Of a stretch of DNA of 64,000 nt, positions 4,350-33,401 are shown in pieces (the first letter of the stretch is position 1; each line of letters begins with the position of its first letter). The DNA comes from Streptomyces sp. NBC_01750 (GTDB taxonomy: Bacteria > Actinomycetota > Actinomycetes > Streptomycetales > Streptomycetaceae): NCBI RefSeq assembly GCF_035918095.1, contig NZ_CP109137.1:4528001-4592000 (forward strand), given 5' to 3'. Under the pieces are notes generated by a model, which worked only from the letters and a program-made list of their open reading frames with translations, ran no database searches and was not told the origin of the DNA. Both the position numbers and the translations under genes were made by a program.

Positions 4350-5030
4350 GTGCGTCTGATCGTCAGGACCTTCAGTGAACTCTGCATCACCGTCGGCACC
4401 TTGATCATGCTCTTTGTGGTGTACGTGCTGTTCTGGACCGGTATCAAGGCCGGCAGTGCCACGGACGGCCAGATCGACCAGCTCCAGGACAGGTGGTCGC
4501 AGGGTCCGGTCGCGGCTCCCGCGCCCGATCGCACAGTGACTCCCGGCCCGAAGGCCTACGAAGACGGAAAGCCTTTCGCGGTCATGTACATCCCCCGCTT
4601 CGGCACGAGCTGGGACTGGCCGGTTCTGGAGGGCACCGAGGTGCGTACCCTCCACAAGGGCCTCGGCCACTACACCTCCACCGCCGCGCTCGGCGGCAGC
4701 GGCAACTTCTCGGTCGCCGGCCACCGCCGCACGTACGGCGACCCGTTCAAGGACTTCCCGAAGCTGCGTCCGGGGGACGCGGTCGTGCTGACGGACGGTA
4801 CGACCTGGTTCACGTACCGCATCGACAAGAGGCCCTACCGGACCGTGCCGAGCGATGTCGGCGTCATCGACCCCGTCCCTGGCAAGTCCGGATTCGACGG
4901 CCCGGGACGCTATCTGACGCTGACCACCTGCGATCCGGAATGGGGCAGCAGCCACCGGCTGGTCGCCTGGGCGCATCTGGACGCCACCCAGCCTGTGACC
5001 GACGGCAAACCGGAAGCTTTGCGCAGCTGA
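4350..5030 (+). CDS. class E sortase (first of three)
   Basis: A sortase of about 226 aa, a membrane-bound cysteine transpeptidase that anchors secreted proteins to the cell wall; class E enzymes usually use LAxTG-type signals. An N-terminal membrane helix (ITVGTLIMLFVVYVLFW) is followed by the sortase barrel. Catalytic His is in VAGHRRTYGDPF, Cys in TLTTCDPEWG, and Arg in SSHRLVAW. GTG at 4350 is preferred because GGGGAG (4335-4340) sits 9 nt upstream. TTG at 4332 and GTG at 4344 are in-frame alternatives. No sorting substrate is visible in the window. Confidence 0.92.
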   Translation: MRLIVRTFSELCITVGTLIMLFVVYVLFWTGIKAGSATDGQIDQLQDRWSQGPVAAPAPDRTVTPGPKAYEDGKPFAVMYIPRFGTSWDWPVLEGTEVRTLHKGLGHYTSTAALGGSGNFSVAGHRRTYGDPFKDFPKLRPGDAVVLTDGTTWFTYRIDKRPYRTVPSDVGVIDPVPGKSGFDGPGRYLTLTTCDPEWGSSHRLVAWAHLDATQPVTDGKPEALRS

Positions 5031-5086
5031 CCCATGTACCTCTGCAGCCCTTTAGTCTGGTGCGGTACCGAACGGAAAGGGACAGC

Positions 5087-5260
5087 ATGTACGGCTGGAT
5101 CTGGCGGCATCTGCCGGGCAACGCATGGGTGCGGGCGTTCATCTCGCTCGTGCTCGCTCTCGCGGTCGTCTACGTGCTGTTCCAGTACGTCTTCCCGTGG
5201 GCGGAGCCGCTGCTCCCGTTCAACGATGTGACGGTCGACGGGGCGGGGGCGGCCCGATGA
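5087..5260 (+). CDS. small membrane protein between sortase and pabA
   Basis: A 57-aa protein starting at ATG 5087 (MYGWIWRHLPGNAWVRA). It has one strong membrane helix (residues 18-37, ISLVLALAVVYVLFQYVFP) and an acidic, Gly/Ala-rich tail. Its stop overlaps the next start as ATGA at 5257-5260, which implies translational coupling to the glutamine amidotransferase. AAAGGGA upstream is a fair ribosome-binding site. It resembles small conserved actinobacterial proteins at this position; function unknown. Confidence 0.8.
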   Translation: MYGWIWRHLPGNAWVRAFISLVLALAVVYVLFQYVFPWAEPLLPFNDVTVDGAGAAR

Positions 5261-5895
5261 GCGCACGCATCCTCGTCGTCGACAACTACGACAGCTTCGT
5301 CTTCAACCTCGTCCAGTACCTGTACCAGCTCGGTGCCGAGTGCGAGGTCAGGCGCAACGACGAGGTCGAACTCGCGCACGCGCAGGACGGTTTCGACGGC
5401 GTACTGCTGTCCCCCGGTCCCGGAGCGCCCGAGCAGGCCGGTGTGTGCATCGACATGGTGCGGCACTGCGCGGATACCGGTGTTCCGGTTTTCGGCGTCT
5501 GTCTGGGGATGCAGTCGATGGCGGTGGCGTACGGCGGTGTGGTGGACCGCGCCCCCGAGCTGCTGCACGGCAAGACATCGCTGGTCACACACGAGGGCAA
5601 GGGCGTCTTCGCCGGGCTGCCCTCGCCGTTCACCGCGACCCGCTACCACTCGCTGGCCGCCGAGCCGGCGGATCTGCCGGACGAGCTGGAGGTCACGGCG
5701 CGGACGGCGGACGGCATCATCATGGGGCTGCGCCACCGTGAACTGGCCGTCGAGGGAGTGCAGTTCCACCCCGAGTCGGTCCTCACCGAGCACGGCCATC
5801 TGATGCTCGCCAACTGGCTGGAGCAGTGCGGCGACACCGGGGCGATCGGCCGTTCGGCGGGGCTCGCACCGGTGGTGGGCAAGGCCTTGGCGTGA
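5257..5895 (+). CDS. pabA: glutamine amidotransferase, PabA/TrpG type
   Basis: A 212-aa class I glutamine amidotransferase subunit that gives ammonia from glutamine to a chorismate-using partner (aminodeoxychorismate or anthranilate synthase). The start ILVVDNYDSFVFNLVQYL is typical. The nucleophile Cys lies in GVCLGMQ, the oxyanion motif in LLSPGPGAPEQ, and the catalytic His/Glu in VQFHPESVL. No partner subunit is in the window, so folate versus tryptophan cannot be settled; the position between sortases matches the PabA assignment used in Streptomyces. It overlaps the next gene as GTGA. Confidence 0.88.
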   Translation: MSARILVVDNYDSFVFNLVQYLYQLGAECEVRRNDEVELAHAQDGFDGVLLSPGPGAPEQAGVCIDMVRHCADTGVPVFGVCLGMQSMAVAYGGVVDRAPELLHGKTSLVTHEGKGVFAGLPSPFTATRYHSLAAEPADLPDELEVTARTADGIIMGLRHRELAVEGVQFHPESVLTEHGHLMLANWLEQCGDTGAIGRSAGLAPVVGKALA

Positions 5896-7079
5896 GCGCC
5901 GCAGGCCCTGAGGACGGGTACGACCCGCTGACGGACCCGCTGCCGCCGGGGGAGCACGGCTCGCCGTGGTTCCGGGCGCCGGGCGTTCCGGAGCCGGAGG
6001 AGCCGCAACCGCAGCCTCAGGAGTGGTCCGGATACGGTCAGTACGACGCGGGCGATCCTCAGGGCTATCAGCGGGACTGGTACGTACAGCCGGAGCCGAT
6101 TCCCGCACCGCAACGACTGTCCGCGCCGCAACCAATGTCAGCGCCGTCACCAGAGCCAGCGCCGATGCAGATGGCCGACCCGATGCCCGTACCGGACGAC
6201 GAGACCGTCGCGCTGCGTACGTCGGACACGCGTCGCGCGGCAGAGACCCCTGCCGGTCCAGGGCGGGCCGAGCGCCGCAAGGCGGCCAAGGGCGGCCGGG
6301 GCCGTAGGCGGTCTCAGCCCGCTGCCGCCGCTGTCACCGCCTCGGCCGACTCCGGGTCCGCCAGGCCTCTTTCGCGTGTCGAGGCCCGCCGTGCCGCGCG
6401 TGCGCTCAAGGACAGCCCCGCCGTCATCGCCAGCCGCGCCATCGGCGAGCTCTTCATCTCCTTCGGCGTGCTGATGCTGCTGTTCGTCACGTACCAGCTC
6501 TGGTGGACGAACATACGCGCGGGGCAGGAGGCCGGCCAGGAGACGAACAAGATCCAGGACGACTGGGCGAAGGGCCGTAAGCCCGGCGCGTTCGAGCCCG
6601 GCCAGGGCTTCGCCATCATGCACATCCCCAAGCTGGATGTGGTCGTCCCGATCGCCGAGGGCATCAGCAAGCACAACGTCCTCGACCGCGGCATGGTCGG
6701 TCACTACGGCGAGGGCAAGCTCACGACCGCGATGCCCGCGGACAAGTCGGGCAACTTCGCGGTCGCGGGGCACCGCAACACTCACGGCGAACCGTTCCGT
6801 TACATCAATCGTCTCAACCCGGGGGACCTGGTCGTCGTTGAGACTCAGGACGCGTACTACACGTACAAGATGGCGCGTACCCTCCCCCAGACCTCGCCGT
6901 CGAACGTAGGAGTGATCGGTCCGGTGCCGGCCGGCTCCGGATTCACCGAGCCGGGCAGGTACATCACGTTGACGACGTGTACACCGGAATTCACGAGTAC
7001 GTATCGATTGATCGTGTGGGGCAAGATGGTCGAGGAACGGCCGCGCAGCAAGGGCAAACCCGATGCGCTTGTCGGCTGA
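5892..7079 (+). CDS. class E sortase with long disordered N-terminus (second)
   Basis: A 395-aa sortase. Residues 1-185 are a Pro/Gln/Glu-rich cytoplasmic region with many PEP, PQP and APSPEP motifs and a basic patch (RRKAAKGGRGRRRSQ). The membrane helix is near residues 200-222 (ELFISFGVLMLLFVTYQLWW). The catalytic domain has His in VAGHRNTHGEPF, Cys in TLTTCTPEF and Arg in STYRLIVWG. GTG 5892 overlaps the pabA stop. A long charged tail is a known variant among actinobacterial sortases. Confidence 0.92.
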   Translation: MSAAGPEDGYDPLTDPLPPGEHGSPWFRAPGVPEPEEPQPQPQEWSGYGQYDAGDPQGYQRDWYVQPEPIPAPQRLSAPQPMSAPSPEPAPMQMADPMPVPDDETVALRTSDTRRAAETPAGPGRAERRKAAKGGRGRRRSQPAAAAVTASADSGSARPLSRVEARRAARALKDSPAVIASRAIGELFISFGVLMLLFVTYQLWWTNIRAGQEAGQETNKIQDDWAKGRKPGAFEPGQGFAIMHIPKLDVVVPIAEGISKHNVLDRGMVGHYGEGKLTTAMPADKSGNFAVAGHRNTHGEPFRYINRLNPGDLVVVETQDAYYTYKMARTLPQTSPSNVGVIGPVPAGSGFTEPGRYITLTTCTPEFTSTYRLIVWGKMVEERPRSKGKPDALVG

Positions 7080-7112
7080 ACGCTGTGGGACTTCAAGACG
7101 GGAACAGGTGCA

Positions 7113-7787
7113 GTGTCACGTGCGCGTAGCCGGATCGCCGGCGCCATCAGTGTCTTCGGCGAACTGCTGATCACCGCGGGCCTGGTGCTGGGGCTCTTTG
7201 TCGTCTACTCACTGTGGTGGACGAACGTTCTCGCCGACCGTGAGGCCTCCAAGCAGGCCGACCGGATGCGCGACGGCTGGAACGGCGCTCCTGGCGCGCT
7301 CGACACCAAGGGCGGCATCGGCTTCCTCCACGTGCCCGCCATGAACAACGGCGAGGTGCTCGTGAGGGAGGGCACCGACACCAAGAGCCTCAACAACGGC
7401 ATCGCGGGCTACTACGCGGACCCGATCAAGTCGGCGCTCCCCTGGGACAGCAAGGGCAACTTCACGCTGGCCGCGCACCGGGACGGGCACGGGGCGAAGT
7501 TCCACAACATCCACAAGCTGAAGAACGGCGATCCGATCGTCTTCGAGACCCGGGACACCTGGTACGTCTACAAGGTCTACAACGAGCTCAAGGAGACCTC
7601 CAAGTACAACGTGGATGTGCTGAGGCCGGTCCCGAAGGAGTCGGGGAAGTCGAAGCCGGGCCGCTACATCACGCTGACGACGTGCACGCCCGTCTACACC
7701 TCGGACTACCGCTACATCGTGTGGGGCGAGCTGGCGCGTACGGAGAAGGTCGACAAGGACCGTACGCCGCCGGTGGAGCTGCGCTGA
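7113..7787 (+). CDS. class E sortase (third)
   Basis: A 224-aa sortase starting at GTG 7113, 33 nt after the second sortase. The membrane helix is at residues 10-33 (FGELLITAGLVLGLFVVYSLWW). The catalytic domain has a His motif LAAHRDGHGAKF, Cys in TLTTCTPVY and Arg in SDYRYIVWG. The His loop differs from the AGHR of its two neighbours (AAHRDGHG). It has no long cytoplasmic tail. Probably in one transcript with the preceding genes; transcription meets the minus-strand endonuclease gene about 95 nt downstream. Confidence 0.92.
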   Translation: MSRARSRIAGAISVFGELLITAGLVLGLFVVYSLWWTNVLADREASKQADRMRDGWNGAPGALDTKGGIGFLHVPAMNNGEVLVREGTDTKSLNNGIAGYYADPIKSALPWDSKGNFTLAAHRDGHGAKFHNIHKLKNGDPIVFETRDTWYVYKVYNELKETSKYNVDVLRPVPKESGKSKPGRYITLTTCTPVYTSDYRYIVWGELARTEKVDKDRTPPVELR

Positions 7788-7882
7788 CAGACCTCCTTGA
7801 AGGACACCAGTCGTTCCAGGCCGGCCGGGGCCCGATGTCGCACTTGCCTTTGCGGCTTCGGGTCCTTTCTGTGCCGCGTCGG

Positions 7883-8931
7883 CTATCCGAGCGCGTTCAG
7901 CGCCGTGCCCGCGCTCCAGGCCTCCAGCAGCCCTCGGTGTACCGCGGTGACACCGCCCTCGGCTGAGATGTTGAGGGCGTCCCGGGTGAACGGGCACGTC
8001 GCTACATAGAGCGCGACGTCGGCCTTGTGCAGCACCTTGGCGGCCCCGAGGAACTTCTGGACGTCGGGGCTCGTCACGGAGTTGTGGGGCGCGAACCTCT
8101 TGCACTGGACGACGACCGGTCGTCCGTCAGGGGTACGCCCGGTGATATCCACGCCCCGGTCACCATGACCGCCTCGTACGACGACGTCGGTGCAGCCGTC
8201 CCGGCGCAGCAGGCCGGCGATGTGCTCCTCGAACTCGGAGCCGTTCATGGCGTCGATGGCGGCCATGACTCCGGCGAGTGGCCGGTCTTTCCGTGGGCCT
8301 TCGAGCCGCCGTAGCCGGGTGTGGTGGTGGCAGAGTCTGCGCTCGACGCGTTGGATGTCCTGGCGCAGGGCGATCAGTTCCTTTCGGTGCTCGCCCGAAT
8401 TCTCGATGAGGGCGTTGAACATGGGGACGACGGCTGTGCCGAGGATGTGGGTGATGCGCCGGTCGATGTGGCCGTCGAGGGAGTCGGCGGGACTGTAGGC
8501 GGAGTTGTCCACAGGTGCGGTGCGTGCCATGTACTCCATGTCGAGGAGGTACGTACGCACCTGACGTGCGACTTCGCTGTCGCGGAGGAGCATGGCGACG
8601 TTGAGGACGGCTCGACGTGGCCAGAGGGCCATCCCTGAACGGGGCTGTGGATAACTTTCACGACAGGAACTCAGCGTGAGTTCCTTAAATTTCTGCAGCT
8701 CAGCGCCGCGCAGGACCCGTAGACCGTTTGCCTCGAGCTCTTCACGGTGTCGGCTGAGAAGGTTGTTGATCACGGTCTCGGCGACCTCGAAGTAGACGGC
8801 GACCATCGCCGTCGTCACATGTATGCCATCCGGCAGTAGGACAGCGCCTTGACCCTCTCAAGCACTTCTGTTCGCGCGACCACACCCTCGCGCAGCGACC
8901 TCGACTCCAGCAGTACAGCTTCGTTGAGCAC
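7883..8931 (-). pseudogene. RhuM-like / Mrr-type restriction endonuclease, frameshifted
   Basis: The C-terminal part (about residues 210-310) is an Mrr_cat-like nuclease: EFEEHIAGLLRRDG, then the acidic residue in GDRGVDITG and the QCK motif in VVVQCKRFAP. The N-terminal part resembles phage RhuM/antirepressor DNA-binding modules (AVYFEVAETVINNLL, GLRVLRGAELQKF), followed by a helical linker. An intact frame starts only at GTG 8818, but coding similarity continues upstream in another frame. From GTG 8931 it reads MLNEAVLLESRSLREG to VKALS, where one base is missing near 8839; restoring it gives the continuous junction ALS-LLPDGIHVTTAMV. If the deletion is real, a shortened protein of 311 aa may still be made. 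Confidence 0.75.
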
Positions 8932-9069
8932 GTGCCCGCCCCTGTCTACTCGTGTAACTGACGCTGCGGCGGTGGAGCCTGAGTCCCGCCCCATCCAGCA
9001 CAACGAGTCGGGACATATGAAGACACGACCGATGGTCGAGAACGTGCGCGACGTGGTCGACGGCACAGG

Positions 9070-9107
9070 AAGAGCCCCGGCACCCTTGGTCGGGTGCCGG
9101 GGCTTCT
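9070..9107 (-). terminator. terminator after pknB
   Basis: A long perfect hairpin (arms AGCCCCGGCACCC and GGGTGCCGGGGCT, short TTGGTC loop) lies about 32 nt past the pknB stop on the minus strand. It has a strong GC stem without a long T tract, the usual Streptomyces form. Confidence 0.8.
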
Positions 9108-9138
9108 GCCGTACGGAATACGGGGCGCGGAGGGGCCG

Positions 9139-11103
9139 CTAGCCGAAGATTCCCCCGTTGCCGCCGCCGTTCCGGCCACCCCCGCCGTCACCGGCGATGG
9201 TCCTCACATTGACCTGCTGATTCGGCGTCGCAGGCTGACCGGCCTGCGGGTCCTGGATGATGACCTTGGCGTTGTCGTCGTTCGGGCCGTCGACGGTGCC
9301 GAGCTGCAGTCCCGCCTGGGCGAGGAGCTGCTTGGCCTGGCCGAGCGTCTGGTTGAACAGCTGGGGCACCTGGGCGGTCTGCTGCGGCGGTCCCTTGGAG
9401 ACCTTCAGCGTGACCGTGGCTCCCTTGGCGGCCTTCGAGTTGCCCGGCGGGTCCTGCTCGGTGACCTGACCCGCGGGCTGCTCCGCGTCGATGTCGTTCC
9501 GGACAACCGTGAAGCCGAGGGTCTCCAGCTGGTTCTTGGCGGCGTCGAACTGCTGGCCCACGACCGGAGGGACGTTGATCTTGGTCTGCTTGGCCACGGT
9601 GAGGGTGACCGTCGAGTTCTTTTCGGCCTGAGAGCCGCCCTGTGGGTCCTGGCTGATCACTGTGCCCGGCTCCCGGTCGGACTCGACCTCCTTGGTCTCG
9701 ACCTTGAAGACCTTGCTCACCAGGATGTCCGTCGCCTTGTCGACAGGCTTGTCGGTGACGTCGGGGACCTCGATCTTGGGGGCGCCCTCGGAGACGACGA
9801 CCTGGATCGTCTCTCCTTGATTCATCTTGCCGTCTTTGGGGGTCTGGCTGCAGATGCTGTTCTTCGGCTGGTCGCACCGCTGAGTGCCGGATTTGGCGAT
9901 CTTGACGCCCGCGTTGATCACCAGCTGTTCGGCTTCCGGGTACGGCTTGCCCACGAGCAGCGGCACCGGCACCTTGCTGCTGCCGTCGGTGCCGCCGAAG
10001 ACGGATTTGCCGATCAGTACCGCTCCGACCAGCACCAGGATGCCCGCGAGTACGAGCAGGATCGTGGAGGTGTTCGACTTCTTCTGGCGGCGACGGTCCG
10101 GGCGGTCGTCGTAACCGCCGTAGCCGCCGTCGTCCGGGTTCACCGGCGGGAGCATCGAGGTCTGGCCGGCCGGGTCGGTCTGGCGCAGTGCCGTGGTCGG
10201 CTGGTCGTCCGGGCTGTAGCCGCCGTAGCCGGCCGCGCCCATCGCCGCCGTCGCCGCGACCGGCTGGCCGTCGAGGCAGGCCTCGATGTCGGCGCGCATC
10301 TCGTCGGCCGACTGGTAGCGGTAGTCGGGGTCCTTGACCAGCGCCTTCAGCACGATCGCGTCCATCTCGGGCGTGATCTCGGGGTCGAAGTTGCTGGGCG
10401 GCTGCGGCTCTTCCCGTACGTGCTGATAGGCGACCGCAACCGGGGAGTCCCCGACGAACGGCGGCCGGACCGTCAGCAGCTCGTAGAGCAGACAGCCGGT
10501 GGAGTAGAGGTCGGAGCGGGCGTCGACCTGCTCGCCCTTGGCCTGTTCCGGGGAGAGGTACTGGGCGGTGCCGATCACGGCCGCGGTCTGCGTCATCGTC
10601 ATTCCGGAGTCGCCCATCGCGCGGGCGATGCCGAAGTCCATGACCTTGACCTGGCCGGTGCGCGTCAGCATGACGTTCGCCGGCTTGATGTCGCGGTGGA
10701 CGATGCCGGCGCGGTGCGAGTACTCCAGTGCCTGGAGGATGCCGATGGTCATCTCGAGCGTGCGCTCGGGCAGAAGTCTGCGCCCGGAGTGCAGCAGCTC
10801 TCTGAGCGTGGACCCGTCGACGTACTCCATCACGATGTACGGGATCGAGACCCCGTCGACGTAGTCCTCGCCCGTGTCGTAGACCGCGACGATCGCCGGG
10901 TGGTTGAGCGAGGCGGCCGACTGGGCCTCACGGCGGAACCGGGCCTGGAAGGACGGGTCACGGGCAAGATCGGCCCGCAGCGTCTTCACGGCGACGGTGC
11001 GGCCGAGCCGGGTGTCGTGGGCGAGGTAGACCTCCGCCATGCCACCACGGCCGAGCACCGAGCCCAGTTCGTACCGGCCGCCCAGGCGACGCGGCTCTTC
11101 CAT
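9139..11103 (-). CDS. pknB: PASTA-domain Ser/Thr protein kinase PknB
   Basis: A 654-aa transmembrane Hanks-type kinase that senses peptidoglycan fragments or lipid II and phosphorylates division and cell-wall proteins. Kinase domain at residues 10-270: P-loop GRGGMAEVYLA, VAVK lysine, HRDIKPANVM catalytic loop, DFGIAR, and SPEQAKG in the activation segment. A Pro/Gly/Asp-rich juxtamembrane region is followed by the helix STILLVLAGILVLVGAVLIG (near residue 350). Four extracellular PASTA repeats follow (about 65 aa each), then a Gly/Asn-rich tail. ATG 11103 is chosen over an upstream in-frame start because MEEPRRLGGRYELG is the normal kinase beginning. It is the last gene of the minus-strand cell-wall cluster. 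Confidence 0.96.
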   Translation of the reverse strand: MEEPRRLGGRYELGSVLGRGGMAEVYLAHDTRLGRTVAVKTLRADLARDPSFQARFRREAQSAASLNHPAIVAVYDTGEDYVDGVSIPYIVMEYVDGSTLRELLHSGRRLLPERTLEMTIGILQALEYSHRAGIVHRDIKPANVMLTRTGQVKVMDFGIARAMGDSGMTMTQTAAVIGTAQYLSPEQAKGEQVDARSDLYSTGCLLYELLTVRPPFVGDSPVAVAYQHVREEPQPPSNFDPEITPEMDAIVLKALVKDPDYRYQSADEMRADIEACLDGQPVAATAAMGAAGYGGYSPDDQPTTALRQTDPAGQTSMLPPVNPDDGGYGGYDDRPDRRRQKKSNTSTILLVLAGILVLVGAVLIGKSVFGGTDGSSKVPVPLLVGKPYPEAEQLVINAGVKIAKSGTQRCDQPKNSICSQTPKDGKMNQGETIQVVVSEGAPKIEVPDVTDKPVDKATDILVSKVFKVETKEVESDREPGTVISQDPQGGSQAEKNSTVTLTVAKQTKINVPPVVGQQFDAAKNQLETLGFTVVRNDIDAEQPAGQVTEQDPPGNSKAAKGATVTLKVSKGPPQQTAQVPQLFNQTLGQAKQLLAQAGLQLGTVDGPNDDNAKVIIQDPQAGQPATPNQQVNVRTIAGDGGGGRNGGGNGGIFG

Positions 11104-11271
11104 AGCTGTTCCAGCCCTCTCCGTCAGTCCCGACCGCACCCGTGTGTGGTCCGGCGGTGTGCTGTTCGCGCATACGCTACCGGGCACGCCGTACCTGATC
11201 CGCCCGTGACGGTCACCTGATACCCGACCGGTATCGCAATGTGCAGGTATGGACGCCGGACGTGATCCGCG

Positions 11272-12741
11272 TCACTTCTTGCTATCCAATACCGCCTGCA
11301 TCACGTCACGGGCGATGGGACCGGCGAGACCGCCGCCGGTGATGTCGTCGCGAGAGGTGCCGCTGGAGTCCTCGACGACGACGGCCACGGCGACCGGCGA
11401 TCCGCTGTCGGTCTTCGCGTACGAGATGAACCAGGCGTACGGCCGCTTGCTGTTGTTTTCGCCGTGCTGGGCGGTACCGGTCTTGCCGCCGACCTTCACG
11501 CCGTCGATTTTGGCCTTGCCGCCGGTGCCGCTCGGGCTCTCGACGACGTTCTCCATCATCTGCTGGAGAAGCTGCGCGTTCTTCGGGGAGAGCGGGCGGC
11601 TCATCTCCTGCGGCTCGTTCCGCTTGATGACCTCCAGGTTGGGTGCTTCCAGCCGGTCGATCATGTACGGCTTCATCAGCTTGCCGTCGTTGGCGATCGC
11701 CGCGGAGACCATGGCCATCTGGAGGGGAGTGGTGGCGGTGTCGAACTGGCCGATGGAGGACAGCGCATTGCTGGAGCGGTCCATCGTCTTGTTGTAGACG
11801 GAGGCGGCCGCACGGACCGGGGTGTCGATCTCGGGGTTGTTGAAGCCGAACTTCTGCGCCGTCTCCAGCATCTTGTCCCGGCCGACCTTGTCACCGAGCT
11901 TGGCGAAGACGGAGTTGCAGGAAACCTCGAGCGCCTTCATCAGGCTGGCGTTCTCGCAGCCGTTGGCGTGGTTGATCATCGGCGTGCGCGTGTTGGGCAG
12001 GATGTACGGCTCCGGGGTGTCCGTCGCCGCGTTGATGTCGTCGATCTCGCCGTGCTCCAGCGCGGCGGCCGCGGTGACCACCTTGAAGGTGGAGCCGGGC
12101 GGGTAGACCTCGCGCAGCGCGCGGTTGAGCTTCGGCTTTTCCTTGTCCTTCTCGAGCGCGTTCCACGCCTTCTCGTCCTTGCCGGAGTAGCCGGCGAAGG
12201 TGGAGGGGTCGTAGGAGGGAGTGGAGGCCAGTGCGAGGATCTTGCCCGTCTTGGGGTCGATCGCTGCGACGGCGCCCTTCTTGGAGCCGAGGCCCTTGTA
12301 TGCGGCCTTCTGCGCGGCGCCGCTGAGGGTCGTGACGACGTTGCCGCCCTTCTTCTCGTCGCCGGTGAACATCGCCATCGTGCGGTCGAAGAAGAGCTGG
12401 TCGGAGTTGCCGGTGAGGATGCCGTCCTCGAGCTTCTCGATCTGGTTGGCGTCGAATGCCTGGGAGGCGTACCCGGTGACAGGGGCCCACATGGGGCCGT
12501 TGACGTAGGTGCGCTTGAACTTGAAGTCGGTGTCGTTGGTCTCGACGGAGCCGGTGATGGGCTTGCCGTCGACGATGATGTTGCCGCGCTCGGCGGCGTA
12601 CCGCTCGATCAGGACGCGGCGGTTCTTCGAGTTCGTGTTGAGGTCGTCGGCCTGGACGTACTGGAGCCAGTTGGTGCGCACCAGCAGGGCAAGGACGAGG
12701 AGTCCGCAGAAGATCGCGATCCGGCGCAGGGGCTTGTTCAC
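11272..12741 (-). CDS. pbpA: class B penicillin-binding protein (PbpA type)
   Basis: A 489-aa peptidoglycan DD-transpeptidase with an N-terminal anchor (residues 6-24, IAIFCGLLVLALLVRTNWLQ). The dimerisation/PBP domain lies to about residue 150 and the transpeptidase domain after it. Active-site motifs: SxxK in PPGSTFKVV, SxN in VSCNSVFAK, and KTGT in GGKTGTAQHG. Its start overlaps the ftsW/rodA stop by 4 nt, so the glycosyltransferase-transpeptidase pair is translated together, as in mycobacterial rodA-pbpA. Confidence 0.95.
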   Translation of the reverse strand: MNKPLRRIAIFCGLLVLALLVRTNWLQYVQADDLNTNSKNRRVLIERYAAERGNIIVDGKPITGSVETNDTDFKFKRTYVNGPMWAPVTGYASQAFDANQIEKLEDGILTGNSDQLFFDRTMAMFTGDEKKGGNVVTTLSGAAQKAAYKGLGSKKGAVAAIDPKTGKILALASTPSYDPSTFAGYSGKDEKAWNALEKDKEKPKLNRALREVYPPGSTFKVVTAAAALEHGEIDDINAATDTPEPYILPNTRTPMINHANGCENASLMKALEVSCNSVFAKLGDKVGRDKMLETAQKFGFNNPEIDTPVRAAASVYNKTMDRSSNALSSIGQFDTATTPLQMAMVSAAIANDGKLMKPYMIDRLEAPNLEVIKRNEPQEMSRPLSPKNAQLLQQMMENVVESPSGTGGKAKIDGVKVGGKTGTAQHGENNSKRPYAWFISYAKTDSGSPVAVAVVVEDSSGTSRDDITGGGLAGPIARDVMQAVLDSKK

Positions 12742-23043: not shown

Positions 23044-23702
<659 letters not shown>

Positions 23703-24782: not shown

Positions 24783-25601
24783 CTACGGCGCGAGCCACTC
24801 CGCCTGGAGCTGGGGAGCCACGTTGGTCTCTCCTGTGAACAGCCAGGCCGAGGTGGCGACACTTCCGGTGGTCTGGAAGGCCCTGAGGGAGATCACGTCA
24901 CCGACATTCAGCTGAACAATCGTTGACACGTCCTGCGAGGTGCCCATGCCTACCGGGGCGTCCGAGGTGTCCTGCCCGTCAAAGGCGACGACACTGCCGT
25001 TGACGGAGATACGAAGTTGACGCTGCCCCTCGTTATTCGCAGTGAAGTTCCAGAGAATCCTTCCCTTGAGGAGGTAGCGCCCGGCGGTGTTGACTTCCAG
25101 CGTCGAGTTCGTCGCGTCGAACATCGTGTCCGTGTCGTAGGCGGCGCCACTGAAAATGATCTGGGTCTCGGCGTTGGCCGGGATGGTCTGAGATTCGGCG
25201 GCGAAGATGCTCGCACCCACATTGACCGTGGGCCCGGCAGGCCCGGCAGGCCCGGCAGGCCCGGCAGGCCCGGCAGGTCCGGCAGGCCCGGTCGATCCCG
25301 CGGGCCCGGCAGGCCCCGTAGCCCCGGTCGGTCCCGTAGCCCCCGTCGGTCCCGTCGGTCCCATCGGGCCCTCGCACTTGTCCTTGCCGCGGCGGTCCGA
25401 CCCGTCCCTGCACTTGTCGTCTCCGCCGCCCGGGCCGCTCGACACGCTCACGCGTCCGCCCACGCTCTGAGCCGCGCCCGCGACCGGACTGACGAGCCCG
25501 GCCGCCAGGACCAGCGCGAGTGCGGCGACCGCGCCGCCCGCGGTCCAGTTGGCTCGACGAGTCAGCAGACCCAGTCGGGACCCTGTCCTGGCAGGACTCA
25601 T
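24783..25601 (-). CDS. secreted collagen-like protein with C1q/BclA-like C-terminal domain
   Basis: A 272-aa exported protein. A signal peptide or anchor is at residues 15-45 ([25 protein letters not shown]). A short basic, charged region with two Cys pairs ([18 protein letters not shown]) follows. Next come about 16 uninterrupted Gly-X-Y triplets (residues 80-127), mostly GPA and GPT, which can form a collagen triple helix. A C-terminal domain of about 145 aa resembles the trimerising C1q/TNF-like head of BclA proteins ([36 protein letters not shown]). The ATG at 25601 gives the signal peptide directly. It stands alone, flanked by gene-poor DNA. Confidence 0.85.
25218..25300. repeat. tandem 9-bp repeat encoding collagen triplets
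   Basis: About six near-perfect copies of GGCCCGGCA (one with a base change) code on the minus strand for the GPA triplets. Such a tract can change in copy number by slippage, altering triple-helix length. Confidence 0.75.
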
Positions 25602-26567
25602 GTACTCGCTCCTCGTTTCGACCGGTTGGGGACTCCACGTCCGATCCCAAGGGCGAGCTTGCCCCCCCCGCGCAGCCGATCGATCGTCACACCCGGTCGG
25701 CACACGCTGATTATCAATAACTCGGAGTAATCGGCAGATCCCAGGTGGGGTGCTTATCCTCCGCTGACCCGCACTCGGGGCGCGCGGCCGAGCGGGCACC
25801 GCTCCGAGCAGGTCCGGATCGACGCTCACGCTCCGGCTCACGCCTTCGGGGTCACCAGAGCGCCGGCCGCGGCCGGCGCCCCGCCATGCATCGGGTTGTG
25901 GCACGAAGTAGACAGCGACGCAAGCCTGTTGGCCCTCAGCCCGGGCAGGGGCTTCGGACAGCAGCGAGTCATGGTGGTACGCGCAGGAATGGGGGCACGG
26001 AAGGCTCTTCGGAAGCTGGGAAGCACCTGGGTGGATTGGATCAGACGCAGTTGCTGCACTTCACTGCTATGCGACGCCGAAAAGCCTCTGTCGGACTTCT
26101 CCGACAGGGGCTCTCAGCTGCGGTGACAGCGCCCCGAGGGGAATTGAAGCAGGTCGGCAGCCCGGAAGCCTACGTACCGCCTCCTCCTGGAGAAGCGCAG
26201 CCACATGGCCGGAGGCTCCCCGCCGGTCGGCGGGGGGTGGTTCGGACACGTGCCGGATGGTAGAAGTCAATATTTTTTCGGAGCCTGAAAGCATGGATAC
26301 AGCTTTTCAGCACCGGGCCAGGCCGTCCGTGTCGCCGGCCTCGGACGACTCTTCCTTGTGTGCGCCCTTCTGTGCGTCGGCAAACGGCGATTGATCGGTC
26401 TCGATCCGATCTCCGCACCGGGTGCCTGCCGCTGCCCCTGGCCGGTCAACCGGCGATCGGAAGGCGCTGGGCGCCGCTGTTGGTGTTACGTCCCGATGTG
26501 CGCAGCAGGGGCGTGACGGTTTCGGCGGTGATCTGACAGTGGACGGCCTGACTGGAGGCGACGGCAC
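25602..26567. other. gene-poor stretch before the carrier/Pls-like gene
   Basis: No intact gene is supported over about 960 bases. It contains an orphan terminator (26083-26112), a second GC hairpin near 26217-26237, and an A/T-rich patch near 26269-26279 unusual for this chromosome. The last 100 bases should carry the promoter of the following gene. Short open frames here are Arg/Pro-rich and look like chance. Confidence 0.45.
26083..26112. terminator. orphan strong terminator
   Basis: A 13-bp stem, AGCCTCTGTCGGA with TCCGACAGGGGCT, has a CTTC tetraloop. No gene ends nearby on either strand, so it probably belonged to a deleted gene. Flanking bases (CGACGCCGAAA, CTCAGCTGCG) resemble those around the terminator at 24704-24738. 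Confidence 0.65.
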
Positions 26568-29384
26568 ATGTCTTCCGAGACCACGGCGGGCACGGATGGT
26601 GCAGCGGTTGGCACCGAGAGCCTGCTGGTGGAGGTTCTGGGTGGTGTTCTGCGTACCGAGCGGGTGCCGGTGGACGCTGATTTCTTCACGGATCTGGGTG
26701 CTGATTCGCTGGTGATGGCTCAGTTCTGTGCGCGGGTGCGCAAGCGGGACGATCTGCCGACGGTGTCGATGAAGGACATCTACCAGCACTCGACGGTTCG
26801 GAGCCTGGCTGCTGCGTTCACGGACAGCACCTTCTCCCCGGCGCAGGAGGACGCACTGTCCGTTGGGGTGGTTGAGTCCCCGACGGATGTGCCAGTCGCC
26901 GGCACCGAGAGCCTGCTGGTGGAGGTTCTGGGTGGTGTTCTGCGTACCGAGCGGGTGCGGGTGGACGCTGATTTCTTCACGGATCTGGGTGCTGATTCGC
27001 TGGTGATGGCTCAGTTCTGTGCGCGGGTGCGCAAGCGGGACGATCTGCCGACGGTGTCGATGAAGGACATCTACGAGCATTCGACGATCCAGAGCCTGGC
27101 CGCCGCGTTCGCGGACGCTCCCGCCGCTGTCCAGCCCACGGCACCCGGGCGCGCGCCGTCACAGCCCTCCCAGCCGGCCCCGGGGCGTGGCGATGCCCCG
27201 TCCGAGGCATCGGGTGCGCCGCAGTCCGGCCCCTGGCGGTATGTGCTGTGCGGGACGGCCCAGCTGCTGATGTTCCTTGTTTTCTCCTCCCTCGGCGCCA
27301 CGATTGCCGTCCTCGGTTACGAGTGGACCCTGGAAGGCTCGGGGACGGCCGGCGTCTACCTGCGGGCGGTGTTGTTCAGTACAGCGCTCTTCTTCGGCGT
27401 CTGCGCGCTGCCCATTGCGGCCAAGTGGATACTCGTCGGCCGTTTCACCCCGCGCCGGTTCCCCGTGTGGAGTTTCGCCTACCTGCGATTCTGGTGCGTC
27501 AAGACCCTCATCCGAACCAGCCCGGTGCGTCTGTTCACCGGTTCACCGCTGTACGTGCTCTACCTCAGGGCCCTCGGCGCACGCATCGGAAAGGGCGTCA
27601 CCATCCTTTCCCGCACCGTCCCTGTCTGCACCGACCTCCTGTCCATCGGTGACGGCACGGTCGTCCGCAAGGACGTGCTGATGTCCTGCTACCGGGCGCA
27701 CGACGGCTGGATCGAGATGGGCCCCGTCACCCTTGGCGCTGATGTGACTGTCAGCGAGCAGGCCGTCGTCGACATCGGGACGTCGATGGGCGACGACACC
27801 CAGCTGGGCCACGCCTCCTCCCTGCATTCCGGGCAGGTGGTGCCGGTCGGAGAGTCGTGGCACGGCACTCCGGCGCAGTCGACGACGACCGATTTCCGGG
27901 CTGTCGAGCCTGCCGCTTGCGGCCCCCTTCGCAGGGCTTTCTACAGCCTGTCGCAGCTGCTTGCCATGCTGCTGGTGTACCTGCCGCTGACGCTGGCGGG
28001 GGTGAGCCTTGTGTTCACCGTGGTGCCGCAGCTGAACGCGGTGTTCACCTTGGGGCCGCCGGCCTTCACCAGCCCCGCGTTCTACCTCGAGGCGCTCGTC
28101 GCTTCCCTGGTGGCCTTCTTCGGCGGCATATTGGTGGGCCTGCTGGTGGTGAGCACGGTGCCACGGTTGCTCAGCCTGGCGATCAAACCGGGCACGGTCT
28201 ACCCGCTGTACGGCTTCCACCACGGCATCCAGCGGGCGATCACGCGGCTGACCAACATCAGATTCTTCACCACGCTCTTCGGCGACAGCTCCGCGATCGT
28301 GCACTACCTGCGGTGCCTCGGATACGACCTGTGCCACATCGCGCAGACCGGGTCGAACTTCGGCACGCTGGTCAAGCACGACACCCCTTACCTCAGCACG
28401 GTCGGGAGTGGAACGATGGTCGCCGACGGCTTGTCGATCATCAACGCCGACTTCTCCAGCTCGTCCTTTTGCTGCTCCCCGACCTCGATAGGGCCGGGCA
28501 ACTTCCTCGGCAACCGCATCCTCTACCCTTCACGCGGCCGGACCGGCGACAACTGCCTGCTCGCGACGAAGGTCATGGTCCCCATCGACGGGCCGGTGCG
28601 CGAAGGCGTGGGACTGCTTGGCTCACCCAGCTTCGAGATCCCGCGCACGGTGCTGCGCGACACCCAGTTCGACCACCTGGCCCACGGTGATGAGCTGCGC
28701 CGCCGACTCGCTGTCAAGAACAAGCACAACGCGCTCACCGCGAGCCTGCACCTGCTGGTGCGATGGTTCCACTTCTTCGTATTCGCCCTCATCACCATGG
28801 CCGCCGTCGAGCTCTACCAGACCATCGGTGTGCCGGCCTTCGTGCTGGCCGGTCTGCTCACCCTGGTGTTCACCATCGTCTACTTCACGCTGGTCGAACG
28901 GGCCGTTATACGAATCCGCCCGGTGAAGCCGCTGTACTGCTCGATCTACCAGGCCGACTTCTGGGGGCACGAACGCTTCTGGAAGCTGACGTCGCACCAG
29001 TACATGCAGGCCTTCAACGGCACCCCGTTCAAGACCATGGTCTGGCGGCTGCTGGGCGTGCGGATCGGCCGCCGGGTCTTCGACGACGGCTGCTCGATCA
29101 CCGAGCGGACCCTCGTCAGCATCGGGGACGGCTGCACCCTCAACGCCGGGACGATCATCCAATGCCACTCGCAGGAGGACGGCGCCTTCAAGTCCGACCA
29201 CGCCACGATCGGCGCGGGCGTGACCCTCGGCGTGAACGCGTTGGTCCACTACGGCACCACGATCGGCGACCAGGCACAGCTGGCCGCCGACTCCTTCCTG
29301 ATGAAGGGCGAGGAAGTTCCCTCTCAAGCGCGGTGGGGCGGAAACCCGGCCCGAGAAGGCACCTCCGTGGCCCGCGTTCTTTGA
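26568..29384 (+). CDS. tandem carrier-domain protein with Pls-like (TIGR02353) membrane/beta-helix region, no adenylation domain
   Basis: A 938-aa protein. Residues 12-85 and 112-185 are two phosphopantetheine carrier (T) domains, each with the attachment Ser in LGADSLVMAQF. A Pro/Gly linker follows. From residue 222 the protein has the architecture of the C-terminal half of epsilon-poly-L-lysine synthetase (Pls/PosA): pairs of membrane helices (YVLCGTAQLLMFLVFSSLGA, LLAMLLVYLPLTLAGVSLVF and HFFVFALITMAAVELYQTIG as examples) alternating with three left-handed beta-helix domains (about 315-410, 560-690, 780-930; e.g. SIGDGTVVRKDVLMSCY, TIGAGVTLGVNALVHYGTTI). Pls itself begins with an adenylation domain, absent here. 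It may be loaded in trans, or modify or export a carrier-bound amino acid. GGAGG lies 9 nt before the ATG. No PPTase or A-domain gene is nearby. Confidence 0.85.
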   Translation: MSSETTAGTDGAAVGTESLLVEVLGGVLRTERVPVDADFFTDLGADSLVMAQFCARVRKRDDLPTVSMKDIYQHSTVRSLAAAFTDSTFSPAQEDALSVGVVESPTDVPVAGTESLLVEVLGGVLRTERVRVDADFFTDLGADSLVMAQFCARVRKRDDLPTVSMKDIYEHSTIQSLAAAFADAPAAVQPTAPGRAPSQPSQPAPGRGDAPSEASGAPQSGPWRYVLCGTAQLLMFLVFSSLGATIAVLGYEWTLEGSGTAGVYLRAVLFSTALFFGVCALPIAAKWILVGRFTPRRFPVWSFAYLRFWCVKTLIRTSPVRLFTGSPLYVLYLRALGARIGKGVTILSRTVPVCTDLLSIGDGTVVRKDVLMSCYRAHDGWIEMGPVTLGADVTVSEQAVVDIGTSMGDDTQLGHASSLHSGQVVPVGESWHGTPAQSTTTDFRAVEPAACGPLRRAFYSLSQLLAMLLVYLPLTLAGVSLVFTVVPQLNAVFTLGPPAFTSPAFYLEALVASLVAFFGGILVGLLVVSTVPRLLSLAIKPGTVYPLYGFHHGIQRAITRLTNIRFFTTLFGDSSAIVHYLRCLGYDLCHIAQTGSNFGTLVKHDTPYLSTVGSGTMVADGLSIINADFSSSSFCCSPTSIGPGNFLGNRILYPSRGRTGDNCLLATKVMVPIDGPVREGVGLLGSPSFEIPRTVLRDTQFDHLAHGDELRRRLAVKNKHNALTASLHLLVRWFHFFVFALITMAAVELYQTIGVPAFVLAGLLTLVFTIVYFTLVERAVIRIRPVKPLYCSIYQADFWGHERFWKLTSHQYMQAFNGTPFKTMVWRLLGVRIGRRVFDDGCSITERTLVSIGDGCTLNAGTIIQCHSQEDGAFKSDHATIGAGVTLGVNALVHYGTTIGDQAQLAADSFLMKGEEVPSQARWGGNPAREGTSVARVL
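26607..27096 (+). repeat. near-identical direct repeat encoding the two carrier domains
   Basis: The segment beginning at 26609 recurs at about 26902 (offset about 293 nt). The first 175 bases or so differ at one position only (gtgcCgg versus gtgcGgg). Similarity then fades across the ends of the carrier domains. Such nucleotide identity points to recent duplication or gene conversion, since synonymous sites have not drifted. Confidence 0.8.
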
Positions 29385-30212: not shown

Positions 30213-31199
30213 GTGACTTCCGACGACCGAACCCCGCAACGGGCCACGCTCGGCACGTGGCCGACCCCGCTCGAGCCCATGCCGCGGCTGGCCGGTGCAC
30301 TCGGCCTCAACCCCGACGACCTGTCGGTCAAACGCGACGACCTCACCGGCCTGGGCGGCGGCGGCAACAAGATCCGCAAACTTGAGTGGATCTGCGGCGC
30401 CGCACTGGCCGACGGCGCGACGACCCTGGTGACCAGCGGTGCGCCGCAGAGCAACCACGCGCGGCTGACCGCCGCCGCCGGCGCCCGGCTGGGGCTCGAC
30501 GTCGTACTCGTGCTCGCCGGCTCACCCGGGTCGTCGGCGTCCGGGAACCTCGCCCTCAACGGGCTCTTCGGTGCGACGGTTGTGTGGGCCGGTGACGTCG
30601 GAGGCGAGGCTCTCCGCTCCGCCGCCGAGCAGGTGGCGGAGCAGCTGCGACATCGCGGCGCTGTCCCGGCGCTCATCCCCTTCGGTGGTTCGAGCGTGCT
30701 CGGTGCGCGTGGGTATGTCGAATGCGGTCGCGAACTCCTCGCTCAGGCCCCTGACTTGGCGACTGTCGTCGTCGCGGTCGGCTCCGGTGGCACCATGGCA
30801 GGCCTGGTCGACGTGCTGGGTCCCGCGCGCGTCCTCGGCGTTCACTGCGGTGCCGTCGGCGACCCTGCCCGGACCGTGTCCGAACTGGCCTCCGGCCTGT
30901 CCGGCACGCACTGCGCGCCGGAGGCGCTCAGGCTCCGGCTCGACCAGGTCGGCGACGGTTACGGTGCTTTGACCGAGCGGGTCATGGCCGCCATGACGCT
31001 GGCCGCACACACCGAAGGCATCGTGCTCGACCCGGTCTACACCGGACGCGCGATGGCCGGCCTGATCGCCGCAACCGAAGCCGGCGACATCGTCCCAGGA
31101 CAGCGCACGATCCTTCTGCACTCGGGCGGTCTTCCCGGGCTCTTCGGCCACCCGGCCACGCTCGCGCGGGCAGCAGCCGCGCTCACCGCCGGAGGTTAG
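30213..31199 (+). CDS. dcyD: D-cysteine desulfhydrase / ACC deaminase family PLP enzyme
   Basis: A 328-aa fold-type II PLP enzyme. The PLP Lys is in GGGGNKIRKLEW (near residue 53). The substrate-recognition SNHAR motif is in SGAPQSNHARLTAAA, and a Gly-rich phosphate-binding loop is AVGSGGTMAGL (near 190). The C-terminal HSGGLPGLFG segment is typical. The family releases pyruvate, ammonia and sulfide from D-cysteine, or opens 1-aminocyclopropane-1-carboxylate; sequence alone does not separate these. It starts at GTG 30213 with AAAGG upstream. Confidence 0.85.
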   Translation: MTSDDRTPQRATLGTWPTPLEPMPRLAGALGLNPDDLSVKRDDLTGLGGGGNKIRKLEWICGAALADGATTLVTSGAPQSNHARLTAAAGARLGLDVVLVLAGSPGSSASGNLALNGLFGATVVWAGDVGGEALRSAAEQVAEQLRHRGAVPALIPFGGSSVLGARGYVECGRELLAQAPDLATVVVAVGSGGTMAGLVDVLGPARVLGVHCGAVGDPARTVSELASGLSGTHCAPEALRLRLDQVGDGYGALTERVMAAMTLAAHTEGIVLDPVYTGRAMAGLIAATEAGDIVPGQRTILLHSGGLPGLFGHPATLARAAAALTAGG

Positions 31200-31364
31200 T
31201 GCGTCCGCCCGGGCCCGTCGGCCGCGATTACCTGCTCCGGGCGGCCGCTGTGGGATCAATTGCTCCATATGTACGCAGCGGTGGGGAATCCTAACGAGTT
31301 CGATGTGCCTGTCCCCCTATCGGAGTCGTGCTGCTGCGCAGGTGCCGCGGCTTACGCTCGCGCC

Positions 31365-33401
31365 GTGTTCAACGTGACAGCAGTTCTCAAACGGCTGGTC
31401 ATCGGCCGCGCCATGCGCAGTGAGGAGCTGGGCGGGACGCTGCTGCCCAAGCGTCTCGCCCTGCCGATCTTCGCTTCCGACCCGCTGTCCTCGGTGGCCT
31501 ACGCCACCCAGGAGATCCTGCTGGTGCTCACCCTTGGCGGGCTGGCCTATCTGCATTTCACGCCGTGGATCGCGGCCGCGGTCGTCGCGCTGATGACGGT
31601 GGTGGTGCTCTCCTACCGCCAGGTCGTGTACGCCTACCCGAGCGGCGGCGGATCGTACGAAGTCGCCTCGACGAACCTGGGCCCCTCCGCCGGTCTGGTG
31701 GTCGCCGCCTCGCTGCTCGTCGACTATGTGATGACCGTGGCCGTCTCGGTCGCCTCCGGAGTCGACAACGTCATTTCGGCCGTGCCCGCCCTGGTCGACT
31801 ACCGGGTTGTGATGGCGCTGGTCTTCGTGGCCGTCCTGACCGCGATGAACCTGCGCGGGGTGCGCGAATCCGGCCAGGCATTCGCCACCCCGACGTATCT
31901 GTTCATCGGCGGGGTGCTGATCATGGTCGGCACGGGCCTGTTCCGCTACCTGCTCGGCGACGCACCGGTGGCCGAGAGCGCCGCGTACGGCATCAAGCCG
32001 CAGCCCGGGGACGCGAGCCTGACCGGGCTGGCCCTGACGATGCTGGTCCTGCGTGCCTTCTCCAGTGGCTGTACCGCACTGACCGGTGTGGAGGCGATCT
32101 CCAACGGTGTGCCGGCGTTCCGCAAGCCCAAGTCGAAGAACGCGGCGGCCACCCTGGCCGCGATGGGCATCATCGCCATCACCATGTTCGTTGGCGTCAC
32201 CACGCTCGCCATCGTCGCCAAGGTGCACATCACCGACGACGCCTGCCGGCTCACCGGTCTGACCGGCGACTGCTCCTCGTACACCCAGCGCACCGTCATC
32301 GCCCAGCTCGCCGCCGCCGTCTTCGGCGGCGAGAACAGCGTCGGCTTCTACTTCCTCCAGGCCGCCACTGCCCTGGTCCTGATCCTCGCCGCGAACACCG
32401 CCTTCAACGGCTTCCCGCTGCTCGCCTCGATCCTTGCCCAGCACCGCTATCTGCCGCGCCAGCTCCACAACCGCGGCGACCGGCTCGCCTTCTCCAACGG
32501 CATCCTCGCCCTGGCCGTCGTGGCCGGTGTGCTGCTGTGGGCGTACAAGGCGAATGTCACCAGCCTCATCCACCTCTACATCCTGGGCGTGTTCACCTCC
32601 TTCACACTCTCCCAGACGGGCATGGTCCGGCACTGGAACCGTGAGCTGCGCACCGAGATCGACCCGGTGCTACGCCGCCGCCACCACGTCGCCCGTGTCA
32701 TCAACGCCACCGGCGCGGTCACGACCTTCCTGGTCCTGGTCATCGTGCTGGCCACCAAGTTCACTCAGGGGGCCTGGCTGGCAGTGCTCGCCGCGATCGT
32801 GCTCTGGGTGATGATGCGGGGCATCCGCCGTCACTACGACGCCGTCGCGGCGGAAATGGCGGTCACCGACCCGCGAAGCGAGATGATGCCGCCTTCCCGC
32901 GTACTGGCCATCGTGCTGGTTTCCACCATCCACAAGCCCACCCTGCGAGCACTGGCCTACGCCCGCGCCTTCAGGCCCGACCATCTGGAAGCACTCACCG
33001 TCGCGGTCGACCGCGACGCGGCTCTCGAGCTCCAACGGCAGTGGGAGAACTACGAGATCCCGGTGCCGCTCAAGGTCCTCGACTCCCCGTACCGCGAGAT
33101 CACCAGATCCGTCCTGGAGTACGTGCGCTCGATCCGGCGCGACAGTCCGCGGGACGTCGTCGCGGTCTTCATCCCCGAGTACGTCGTGGGTCACTGGTGG
33201 GAGAACCTGCTGCACAACCAGTCCGCGCTGTGGCTCAAGAGCCGCCTGCTCTTCACCCCTGGGGTCATGGTGACCAGCGTCCCCTGGCAGCTCACCTCCT
33301 CCGCCCGAGCCGACCACCCCGCCGCCCGTGCCCCCGGCTCCGTCCGCCGCGGTGAACCCACCACGCCCGACCAGAGCGAAGACGTCAGCACGCATCAGTA
33401 G
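31365..33401 (+). CDS. APC family permease (KUP-like architecture)
   Basis: A 678-aa transporter with about 12 membrane helices (residues 25-490) and a C-terminal cytoplasmic domain of about 170 aa (from IRRHYDAVAAEM). The N-terminal segment LGGTLLPKRLALPIFASDPLSSVAYATQEILLVL is the signature of this actinobacterial permease group (first residues shown in two pieces: LPKRLALPIFASDP, LSSVAYATQEIL). Substrate is unknown: amino acids or potassium are both suggested for relatives. GTG 31365 is chosen since upstream in-frame sequence is Cys/Ala-rich and not family-like. Confidence 0.82.
   Translation: MFNVTAVLKRLVIGRAMRSEELGGTLLPKRLALPIFASDPLSSVAYATQEILLVLTLGGLAYLHFTPWIAAAVVALMTVVVLSYRQVVYAYPSGGGSYEVASTNLGPSAGLVVAASLLVDYVMTVAVSVASGVDNVISAVPALVDYRVVMALVFVAVLTAMNLRGVRESGQAFATPTYLFIGGVLIMVGTGLFRYLLGDAPVAESAAYGIKPQPGDASLTGLALTMLVLRAFSSGCTALTGVEAISNGVPAFRKPKSKNAAATLAAMGIIAITMFVGVTTLAIVAKVHITDDACRLTGLTGDCSSYTQRTVIAQLAAAVFGGENSVGFYFLQAATALVLILAANTAFNGFPLLASILAQHRYLPRQLHNRGDRLAFSNGILALAVVAGVLLWAYKANVTSLIHLYILGVFTSFTLSQTGMVRHWNRELRTEIDPVLRRRHHVARVINATGAVTTFLVLVIVLATKFTQGAWLAVLAAIVLWVMMRGIRRHYDAVAAEMAVTDPRSEMMPPSRVLAIVLVSTIHKPTLRALAYARAFRPDHLEALTVAVDRDAALELQRQWENYEIPVPLKVLDSPYREITRSVLEYVRSIRRDSPRDVVAVFIPEYVVGHWWENLLHNQSALWLKSRLLFTPGVMVTSVPWQLTSSARADHPAARAPGSVRRGEPTTPDQSEDVSTHQ

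Follow-up and report, generated by a model that had tools for sequence, protein, structure and literature searches.

The window analysed here is a stretch of 64,000 nucleotides (C1:4528001-4592000) from the 8.98-Mb genome of Streptomyces sp. NBC_01750 (genome G000), for which the nearest database proteins are from Streptomyces. The gene of interest is an open reading frame (ORF) on the plus strand at 26568-29384, which starts with ATG and encodes a protein of 938 residues related to the Pls/PosA synthetases. A sequence-only reading had described this protein as lacking an adenylation (A) domain and joining two carrier domains to a Pls-like membrane half, and the domain searches bear this out. 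The Pfam scan identified PP-binding (PF00550) twice and gave no match to AMP-binding in the whole protein, and there was no match to the condensation domain PF00668 up to an E value of 0.1. The NCBIfam model TIGR02353 was matched over its full length (1-695 of 695) by residues 227-928, with 764.6 bits against a cut-off of 423.1. The features of the gene are as follows.

26554..26558, plus strand: GGAGG, ribosome-binding-site-like, 9 bases before the ATG (read from the sequence)
26592..26825, plus strand: direct repeat copy 1 (234 nt, holding carrier 1), 93% identical to copy 2
26610..26819, plus strand: carrier domain 1, residues 15-84, with Ser47 at 26706-26708
26883..27116, plus strand: direct repeat copy 2 (234 nt, holding carrier 2), 93% identical to copy 1
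26904..27113, plus strand: carrier domain 2, residues 113-182, with Ser144 at 26997-26999
27231..27437, plus strand: predicted membrane helix pair 1, residues 222-290 (model and hydropathy)
27246..29351, plus strand: TIGR02353 Pls/PosA terminal region, residues 227-928 (NCBIfam)
27540..27893, plus strand: β-helix domain C1, about residues 325-442
27924..28175, plus strand: predicted membrane helix pair 2, residues 453-536 (model and hydropathy)
28284..28658, plus strand: β-rich domain C2, about residues 573-697, with Asp620 (model)
28686..28916, plus strand: predicted membrane helix pair 3, residues 707-783 (model and hydropathy)
28998..29360, plus strand: β-helix domain C3, about residues 811-931, with His867 (29166-29168) and Asp871; PF00132 at residues 878-909

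The AlphaFold2 model (mean predicted local distance difference test score 80.1, predicted template modelling score 0.74) consists of two carrier bundles followed by three pairs of long helices with three intervening β-rich domains. Both carriers keep the motif LGADSL, with Ser47 and Ser144. The topology is that of ε-poly-L-lysine synthetase and the δ-poly-L-ornithine synthetase PosA, which likewise have the TIGR02353 region, three helix pairs (here six predicted membrane helices), three β-helix domains and a carrier, with its phosphopantetheine serine, ahead of the membrane half (PMC10522769). The window protein departs from them in having no A domain in the same chain as the Pls half. A Foldseek search with the model was uninformative for a chain of 938 residues, since single β-helix domains dominate the matches and there is no whole-chain match.

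Proteins of this type, here called A-less, are not rare. TIGR02353 proteins without an A domain, and stand-alone A domains occurring with them, were sought in a genus sample of 121 genomes, the window's own included. TIGR02353 was found in 66 of the 121 genomes, with 95 matches: 46 A-less proteins, all at fetched loci, one fusion, and 48 A-bearing proteins, of which 18 were fetched and confirmed by their domains and 30 were judged on frame length alone. Matches were classed first on the length of the open frame and then on the domains found at the fetched loci. Of the 46 A-less genes, 42 are adjoined by a separate nonribosomal peptide synthetase (NRPS) gene with the organisation [half-C]-A-carrier, in many operons with a thioesterase (TE) at its end; the half-C appears to be the C-terminal part of a condensation domain, since at L019 the last part of the Pfam profile gives a sub-threshold match. 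We call this protein the loader. The other usual neighbours are a TauD-type dioxygenase and SbnB and SbnA, the pair for synthesis of 2,3-diaminopropionate (Dap). All five genes are present at 38 of the 46 A-less loci; contig ends cut three others (L039, L042 and L056), and L062 is an A-less operon without TauD and SbnB. None of TauD, SbnB and SbnA was found at any of the 18 fetched A-bearing loci. The A-less genes without an adjoining loader are the window gene, L063, L065 and L069; we refer to such copies as lone. A separate contig scan of 17 loci found a loader at 11 and none at L012, L013, L014 and L025 (of the other two, L023 lies on a contig of only 3.6 kb that has SbnA, and the broken locus L028 was left unscored).

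Loader and membrane protein are joined in the fusion, L087 of genome G105 (4548-11528, minus strand). This is a single frame of 2327 residues that reads carrier-Pls-[half-C]-A-carrier-TauD, which are the first three genes of the operon with their order kept, and it is adjoined by SbnB and SbnA. The proposal of the earlier reading that the amino acid is supplied by another protein is supported both by the adjoining A-carrier gene and by the one genome in which the two are fused. It is worth adding that L017 (8804-12565) has a Pls of the A-less clade with a partial in-frame A match (residues 96-392) upstream of its carrier, followed by a separate loader gene.

The same reading held that the second carrier stands in place of the A domain, and here the relatives tell otherwise. 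Among 121 sequences that were scored, 53 have one carrier, 35 have two and 25 have three, partial carrier matches being counted; the overall range is one to six in tandem, and operon and lone copies are both found with several. One-carrier A-less relatives are thus the commoner, and the lack of the A domain and the duplication of the carrier therefore look like separate events. P0060 is among several A-less proteins with three to six tandem carriers.

The window's own genome has five TIGR02353 proteins over the cut-off, namely the window gene, an A-carrier-Pls protein (L010) and three further A-less proteins (L008, L009 and L011). Each of these three is adjoined by an A-containing NRPS, a TauD-family dioxygenase, SbnB and SbnA, so that the Dap-making pair stands beside the synthetase here as in the operons of the relatives. 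The three operons sit at about 0.48, 1.03 and 8.59 Mb, and in L009 SbnA is divergent and lies upstream of Pls. In L008 SbnB scores 403.1 (NCBIfam cut-off 326.9) and SbnA 387.6 (cut-off 349.95), which marks them as enzymes of Dap synthesis. The earlier remark that there is no A-domain, MbtH or phosphopantetheinyl transferase gene in the window has no bearing on how the protein is served, as the genome contains three matching loaders, eight phosphopantetheinyl-transferase-domain matches and one MbtH match.

The three loaders are almost the same. At the DNA level the loader of L008 matches the L011 loader at 99.8% identity over 2532 nt and the L009 loader at 98.8% over 2442 nt, and this identity has a sharp edge at the Pls gene, the three Pls genes being only 73-75% identical in DNA. 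In protein, the A domains are 99.2-100% identical, and the Pls regions 65.6-68.5%. This looks as after gene conversion or cassette exchange. No such homogenisation was found in the two other complete within-genome operon pairs compared, in which the A domains are 81.4% (G040) and 74.9% (G101) identical. Two loader A domains of G258 (C1:2325298-2326818 and 7237690-7239210) have an equal score of 762.9 bits and are perhaps homogenised too. Compared with each of the three operon Pls proteins, the window Pls shows 62.4-68.5% identity. One loader sequence thus already stands beside Pls proteins as divergent from one another as the window Pls is from them. With the carriers of the operon Pls proteins of the same genome the window carriers share 61-76% identity, with the carrier of the A-carrier-Pls protein 37-39%, and with the loader's own carrier 25-27%.

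The relationship of the lone copies to the operons was analysed with a FastTree tree of 130 Pls regions. The window protein, L012, L014, L063, L065 and 32 database proteins form a single clade with support 1.0, referred to below as the lone clade. It is nested among the A-less copies, and its sister is the operon group holding L009 (support 0.997); the lone copies are therefore not recent duplicates of the operons of their own genomes. In this tree an operon label denotes any A-less locus off the lone list, including the loader-less Pseudonocardia loci L114-L116, L118, L120, L122 and L126. A DNA search of 392 genomes, with one or two places scored per genome, found A-less Pls in at least 143 of them. 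From this search 20 loci were fetched, made up of 13 new rows of at least 1385 bits (from 11 genomes) and seven second copies in those same genomes, and a second tree placed L129, L131, L133, L135, L137, L139 and L140 in the lone clade (support 0.80). L129 has one carrier, and the assembly of L012 has a gap at the repeat.

Gene context was judged for 12 lone-clade copies, the 32 database proteins being known by sequence alone. None of the 12 has operon genes nearby, and every one of the 12 genomes has an operon elsewhere: three in G000, and L035, L039, L130, L132, L134, L136, L138, L154, L141, L109 and L113 in the others. The L039 operon reaches the contig end, and SbnB is missing from what was fetched around L141. 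Ten of the lone-clade genomes belong to the 392-genome sample, and for these the chance of this co-occurrence is 3.4e-5 with 143 genomes having A-less Pls, 1.1e-4 if there were 160 such genomes, and 9.3e-5 for nine genomes when the window's own is left out, on the assumption that genomes are independent. For two lone copies outside the clade, L069 and L025, the genome again contains an operon (L036 and, with a partial A match, L119). A loader search at E ≤ 1e-180 had matched in seven of nine genomes and given no loader in G407 and G387, but the threshold was too strict: a full operon (L154) was found in G407 from the SbnB regions, and in L141 of G387 the A domain of the loader is matched in two pieces. 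G407 also contains, at L153 (6354-10002), TauD and SbnB together with fragments of SbnA and with no Pls or loader, which looks like a second, broken-down operon. The flanking genes of the window gene were compared with those of L012, L013, L014, L025, L065 and L069, and a block is shared with L012 only (window 33-42 kb), so there is no common partner at the lone loci.

The lone copies are under purifying selection. The ratio of nonsynonymous to synonymous substitution rates (dN/dS, over about 707 codons) is 0.21-0.36 for the window gene against L012, L063, L014 and L065, and 0.18-0.36 for four operon pairs. Six further lone pairs gave 0.19-0.46, the highest being the window gene against L131; against six other lone copies in all, the window gene gives 0.21-0.46. 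The window protein also keeps 180 of 182 operon-invariant positions, defined by an invariance of 97% or more across 52 operon copies that all have a loader, and seven other lone copies keep 174-181. Of the 54 positions that are invariant in the operon Pls proteins and in the A-bearing ones alike, it keeps 53, the exception being Leu401, which is Val. Asp620, Glu802, His867 and Asp871 are present without exception in the operon (52/52), A-bearing (21/21) and lone-clade (37/37) rows. His867, in C3, is the only histidine among the ionisable residues common to all the Pls rows compared. His867/Asp871 in C3 is a candidate active site.

These results bear on the nature of the A-less proteins as a whole. 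The earlier reading would have been refuted by intact relatives that all carry an A domain, which would make this copy a truncated Pls; instead, the A-less carrier-Pls proteins are a separate and common subfamily. The idea of a truncated or decayed Pls was rejected in view of the clade structure, the invariant residues that are kept, and dN/dS.

The likely substrate was approached through the A domains of the loaders. The specificity code was read by hand from an alignment to LgrA, with the positions of GrsA, and was then checked over 58 loader A domains. The codes are DIWQVVADD (45), DIWQVAADD (10), DIWQVPTDD (2) and DIWQMVADD (1), so that 55 of the 58 conform to DIWQV(V/A)ADD. A paragraph on Dab (2,4-diaminobutyrate) and Dap domains reports that the code DVWQMIGDDK recognises "the beta-OH modification" (PMC12283262), which we read as β-OH-Dab. 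Known cationic homopolymer synthetases have Asp at code position 1 and Glu at position 3, and the poly-Dap (PDAP) synthetase has Phe at position 2 (PMC10522769). The loader code does not match that of the PDAP synthetase, all 58 domains having Ile at position 2 and Trp at position 3. Given the adjoining SbnA and SbnB, the residue is most likely Dap or hydroxy-Dap.

From the architecture, the operon context, the fusion, the co-occurrence and the selection on the lone copies we infer trans-loading, and with it a substrate, a reaction and an export step. In the operons, SbnA and SbnB would make Dap, possibly hydroxylated by the TauD-type enzyme. The loader would activate this small diamino acid and aminoacylate the carrier or carriers of the membrane Pls protein in trans. 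The β-helix and membrane half would then form isopeptide bonds, with His867/Asp871 of C3 as candidate catalytic residues, and pass the product out. The missing A part is normally in a separate, adjoining gene in the relatives, and the lone window copy therefore most likely borrows its loader from the operons of the chromosome. The window protein is conserved and under selection, and in all likelihood it represents a split form of Pls that is loaded in trans. More specifically, we consider it probable, though some way from certain, that it is the polymerising and exporting subunit of a split Pls/PosA-type synthetase, a lone two-carrier paralogue with no loader of its own that is loaded in trans by the operon loader from elsewhere in the genome.

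Several observations weigh against this proposal. The loader code has neither the Glu at position 3 of the known cationic homopolymer synthetases nor the Phe at position 2 of the PDAP synthetase (PMC10522769), so that the substrate may differ from plain Dap. The loaders have a carrier of their own, and often a thioesterase, and might deliver the residue to another partner. The co-occurrence may partly reflect shared ancestry rather than dependence. Finally, the adjacency of the loader is looser outside the genus: in Pseudonocardia alaniniphila (G147), the genome that L025 comes from, six of the 15 TIGR02353 genes include an A domain and nine are A-less, and within the fetched stretches only L119 of the nine A-less loci has a loader match.

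The most serious alternative, although we think it unlikely, is that the A-less Pls does not polymerise. It would then use the residue supplied by the loader to form just one amide or ester bond, as a cap or in a membrane transfer, as one step of a small-molecule pathway. The dioxygenase of the operon and the frequent thioesterase of the loader would be superfluous for a plain homopolymer, and recombinant Pls also forms esters with glycerol and polyethylene glycol (PMC9606270). Against a single bond, the TIGR02353 region is intact throughout and has 53 of the 54 shared invariant positions, and the 2 to 6 tandem carriers of many relatives fit repeated use. It is less probable again that another of the genome's A domains charges the lone copy with a different amino acid, and that its role has nothing to do with the operon. 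The A-carrier-Pls protein L010 offers such an A domain, and the window shares its flanking block with only one of the six lone loci; but the operon is present in 12 of 12 lone-clade genomes, and the window carriers are much closer to the operon carriers (61-76%) than to that of the A-carrier-Pls protein (37-39%).

That the lone copy is a relic heading for loss seems very improbable. It has no operon neighbours, and no remnants of loader, TauD, SbnB or SbnA were found in the 64-kb window (best E 0.17). However, dN/dS against four lone copies is close to that of the operon pairs, although it rises to 0.46 against L131, and the 180 invariant positions, both carrier serines and a clade recovered in two trees (support 1.0 and 0.80) speak against it. 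We give almost no credence to the remaining idea, that the protein is a classical A-carrier-Pls synthetase minus its A domain. A domains do come and go, as shown by the in-frame A domains of L017, L118, L121 and L123-L125, which are nested in the A-less clade, and of P0058, P0067 and P0085 at 57-61% identity. But the branch that parts the A-less clade from the A-carrier-Pls proteins of the genus is long, at 3.0 substitutions per site (support 0.84), in neither tree does the window clade fall inside the A-carrier-Pls proteins, no A domain is present in the 120 listed homologues above 61% identity, and the loader A-domain code is unlike that of the known homopolymer synthetases.

Split loading by a separate protein is the reading we keep, and a wider picture may tentatively be drawn from it, which we regard as possible but on balance doubtful. 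An undescribed pathway widespread in Streptomyces would use a split Pls to make an isopeptide polymer of hydroxylated Dap, with a shared loader feeding several diverged membrane polymerases of one cell. Detached two-carrier copies, of which the window gene is an example, would draw on the common pool of activated monomer for a second product that is longer, branched or exported in a different way. The sequence-only reading had singled out the window gene as the best candidate for an undescribed system. What merits attention as a system is the five-gene operon, of which the window gene is a detached paralogue. Neither A-less Pls proteins nor their operons were found described in the open-access literature, to which the search was confined (subscription papers lay outside it).

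Cationic isopeptide polymers, among them ε-polylysine, which is used to preserve food, are best known as products of Pls-type enzymes. A comb-like Dap polymer was reportedly described by Takehara in 2021; no link from it to the A-less Pls operons is claimed. ORF18 of the streptothricin pathway is a carrier-condensation protein, and ORF5 presumably has a part in the ORF18/ORF19 system. If the proposal is true, loading and polymerising are on separate proteins, so that the steps could be assayed apart and the partners swapped. The survey network made around PosA was limited to proteins of 1100-1800 residues (PMC10522769), which puts proteins of the size of the window gene product outside it. As the A-less form lies below this limit and is found in about a third of the sampled genomes, its product may be common but unseen.

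The known systems resemble the present one in part. Pls and PosA have the A domain in the same chain and Glu at code position 3 (PMC10522769), whereas here the A domain is in another protein, the loader, with Trp at that position. The PDAP synthetase of S. albulus PD-1 has an A-carrier part, a C-terminal half of three domains with seven transmembrane segments, and two Dap enzymes (PMC4668381). It is alike in combining a Pls-type polymerase with the cysteine-synthase-like and ornithine-cyclodeaminase-like L-Dap enzymes NjxA and NjxB, but it is a single A-carrier-Pls chain (PMC4668381), while the operons have the separate loader and a TauD-type dioxygenase. Trans-loading itself has a precedent in CmnI, a module without an A domain that receives L-Dap in trans from CmnA-A1, and VioA-A2 similarly serves VioI (PMC12400406). 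The likeness is in the A-less carrier, for which gene context here points to a candidate partner A domain; the difference is that CmnI is a carrier-condensation protein (PMC12400406) whereas the window carriers join a Pls membrane half and no condensation domain was found. In streptothricin synthesis, ORF18 and ORF19 are alike in that a carrier is served by a stand-alone A domain and a short cationic isopeptide results, but ORF19 is described as chain-elongating (PMC9606270), while here the Pls half is the expected catalyst.

Some neighbouring genes in the window deserve mention. Just upstream of the Pls gene, at 24783-25904 on the minus strand, is a gene for a collagen-repeat protein with a sub-threshold BclA_C-like end, to which there is no match in the fetched stretch of L012. 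Downstream are a D-cysteine desulfhydrase/sulfo-lyase-like enzyme that scores below the curated cut-offs (30213-31199, plus strand) and, by eye, an APC-type permease (31260-33401, plus strand). The Pls gene is separated by these two from a two-component pair; L012 has the pair, with no match to the two genes. Finally, at 23463-23702 on the plus strand there is an ORF of 79 residues that, by eye, resembles the two ends of a thioredoxin reductase with the middle gone, and which adjoins an arsenate-reductase-like gene.

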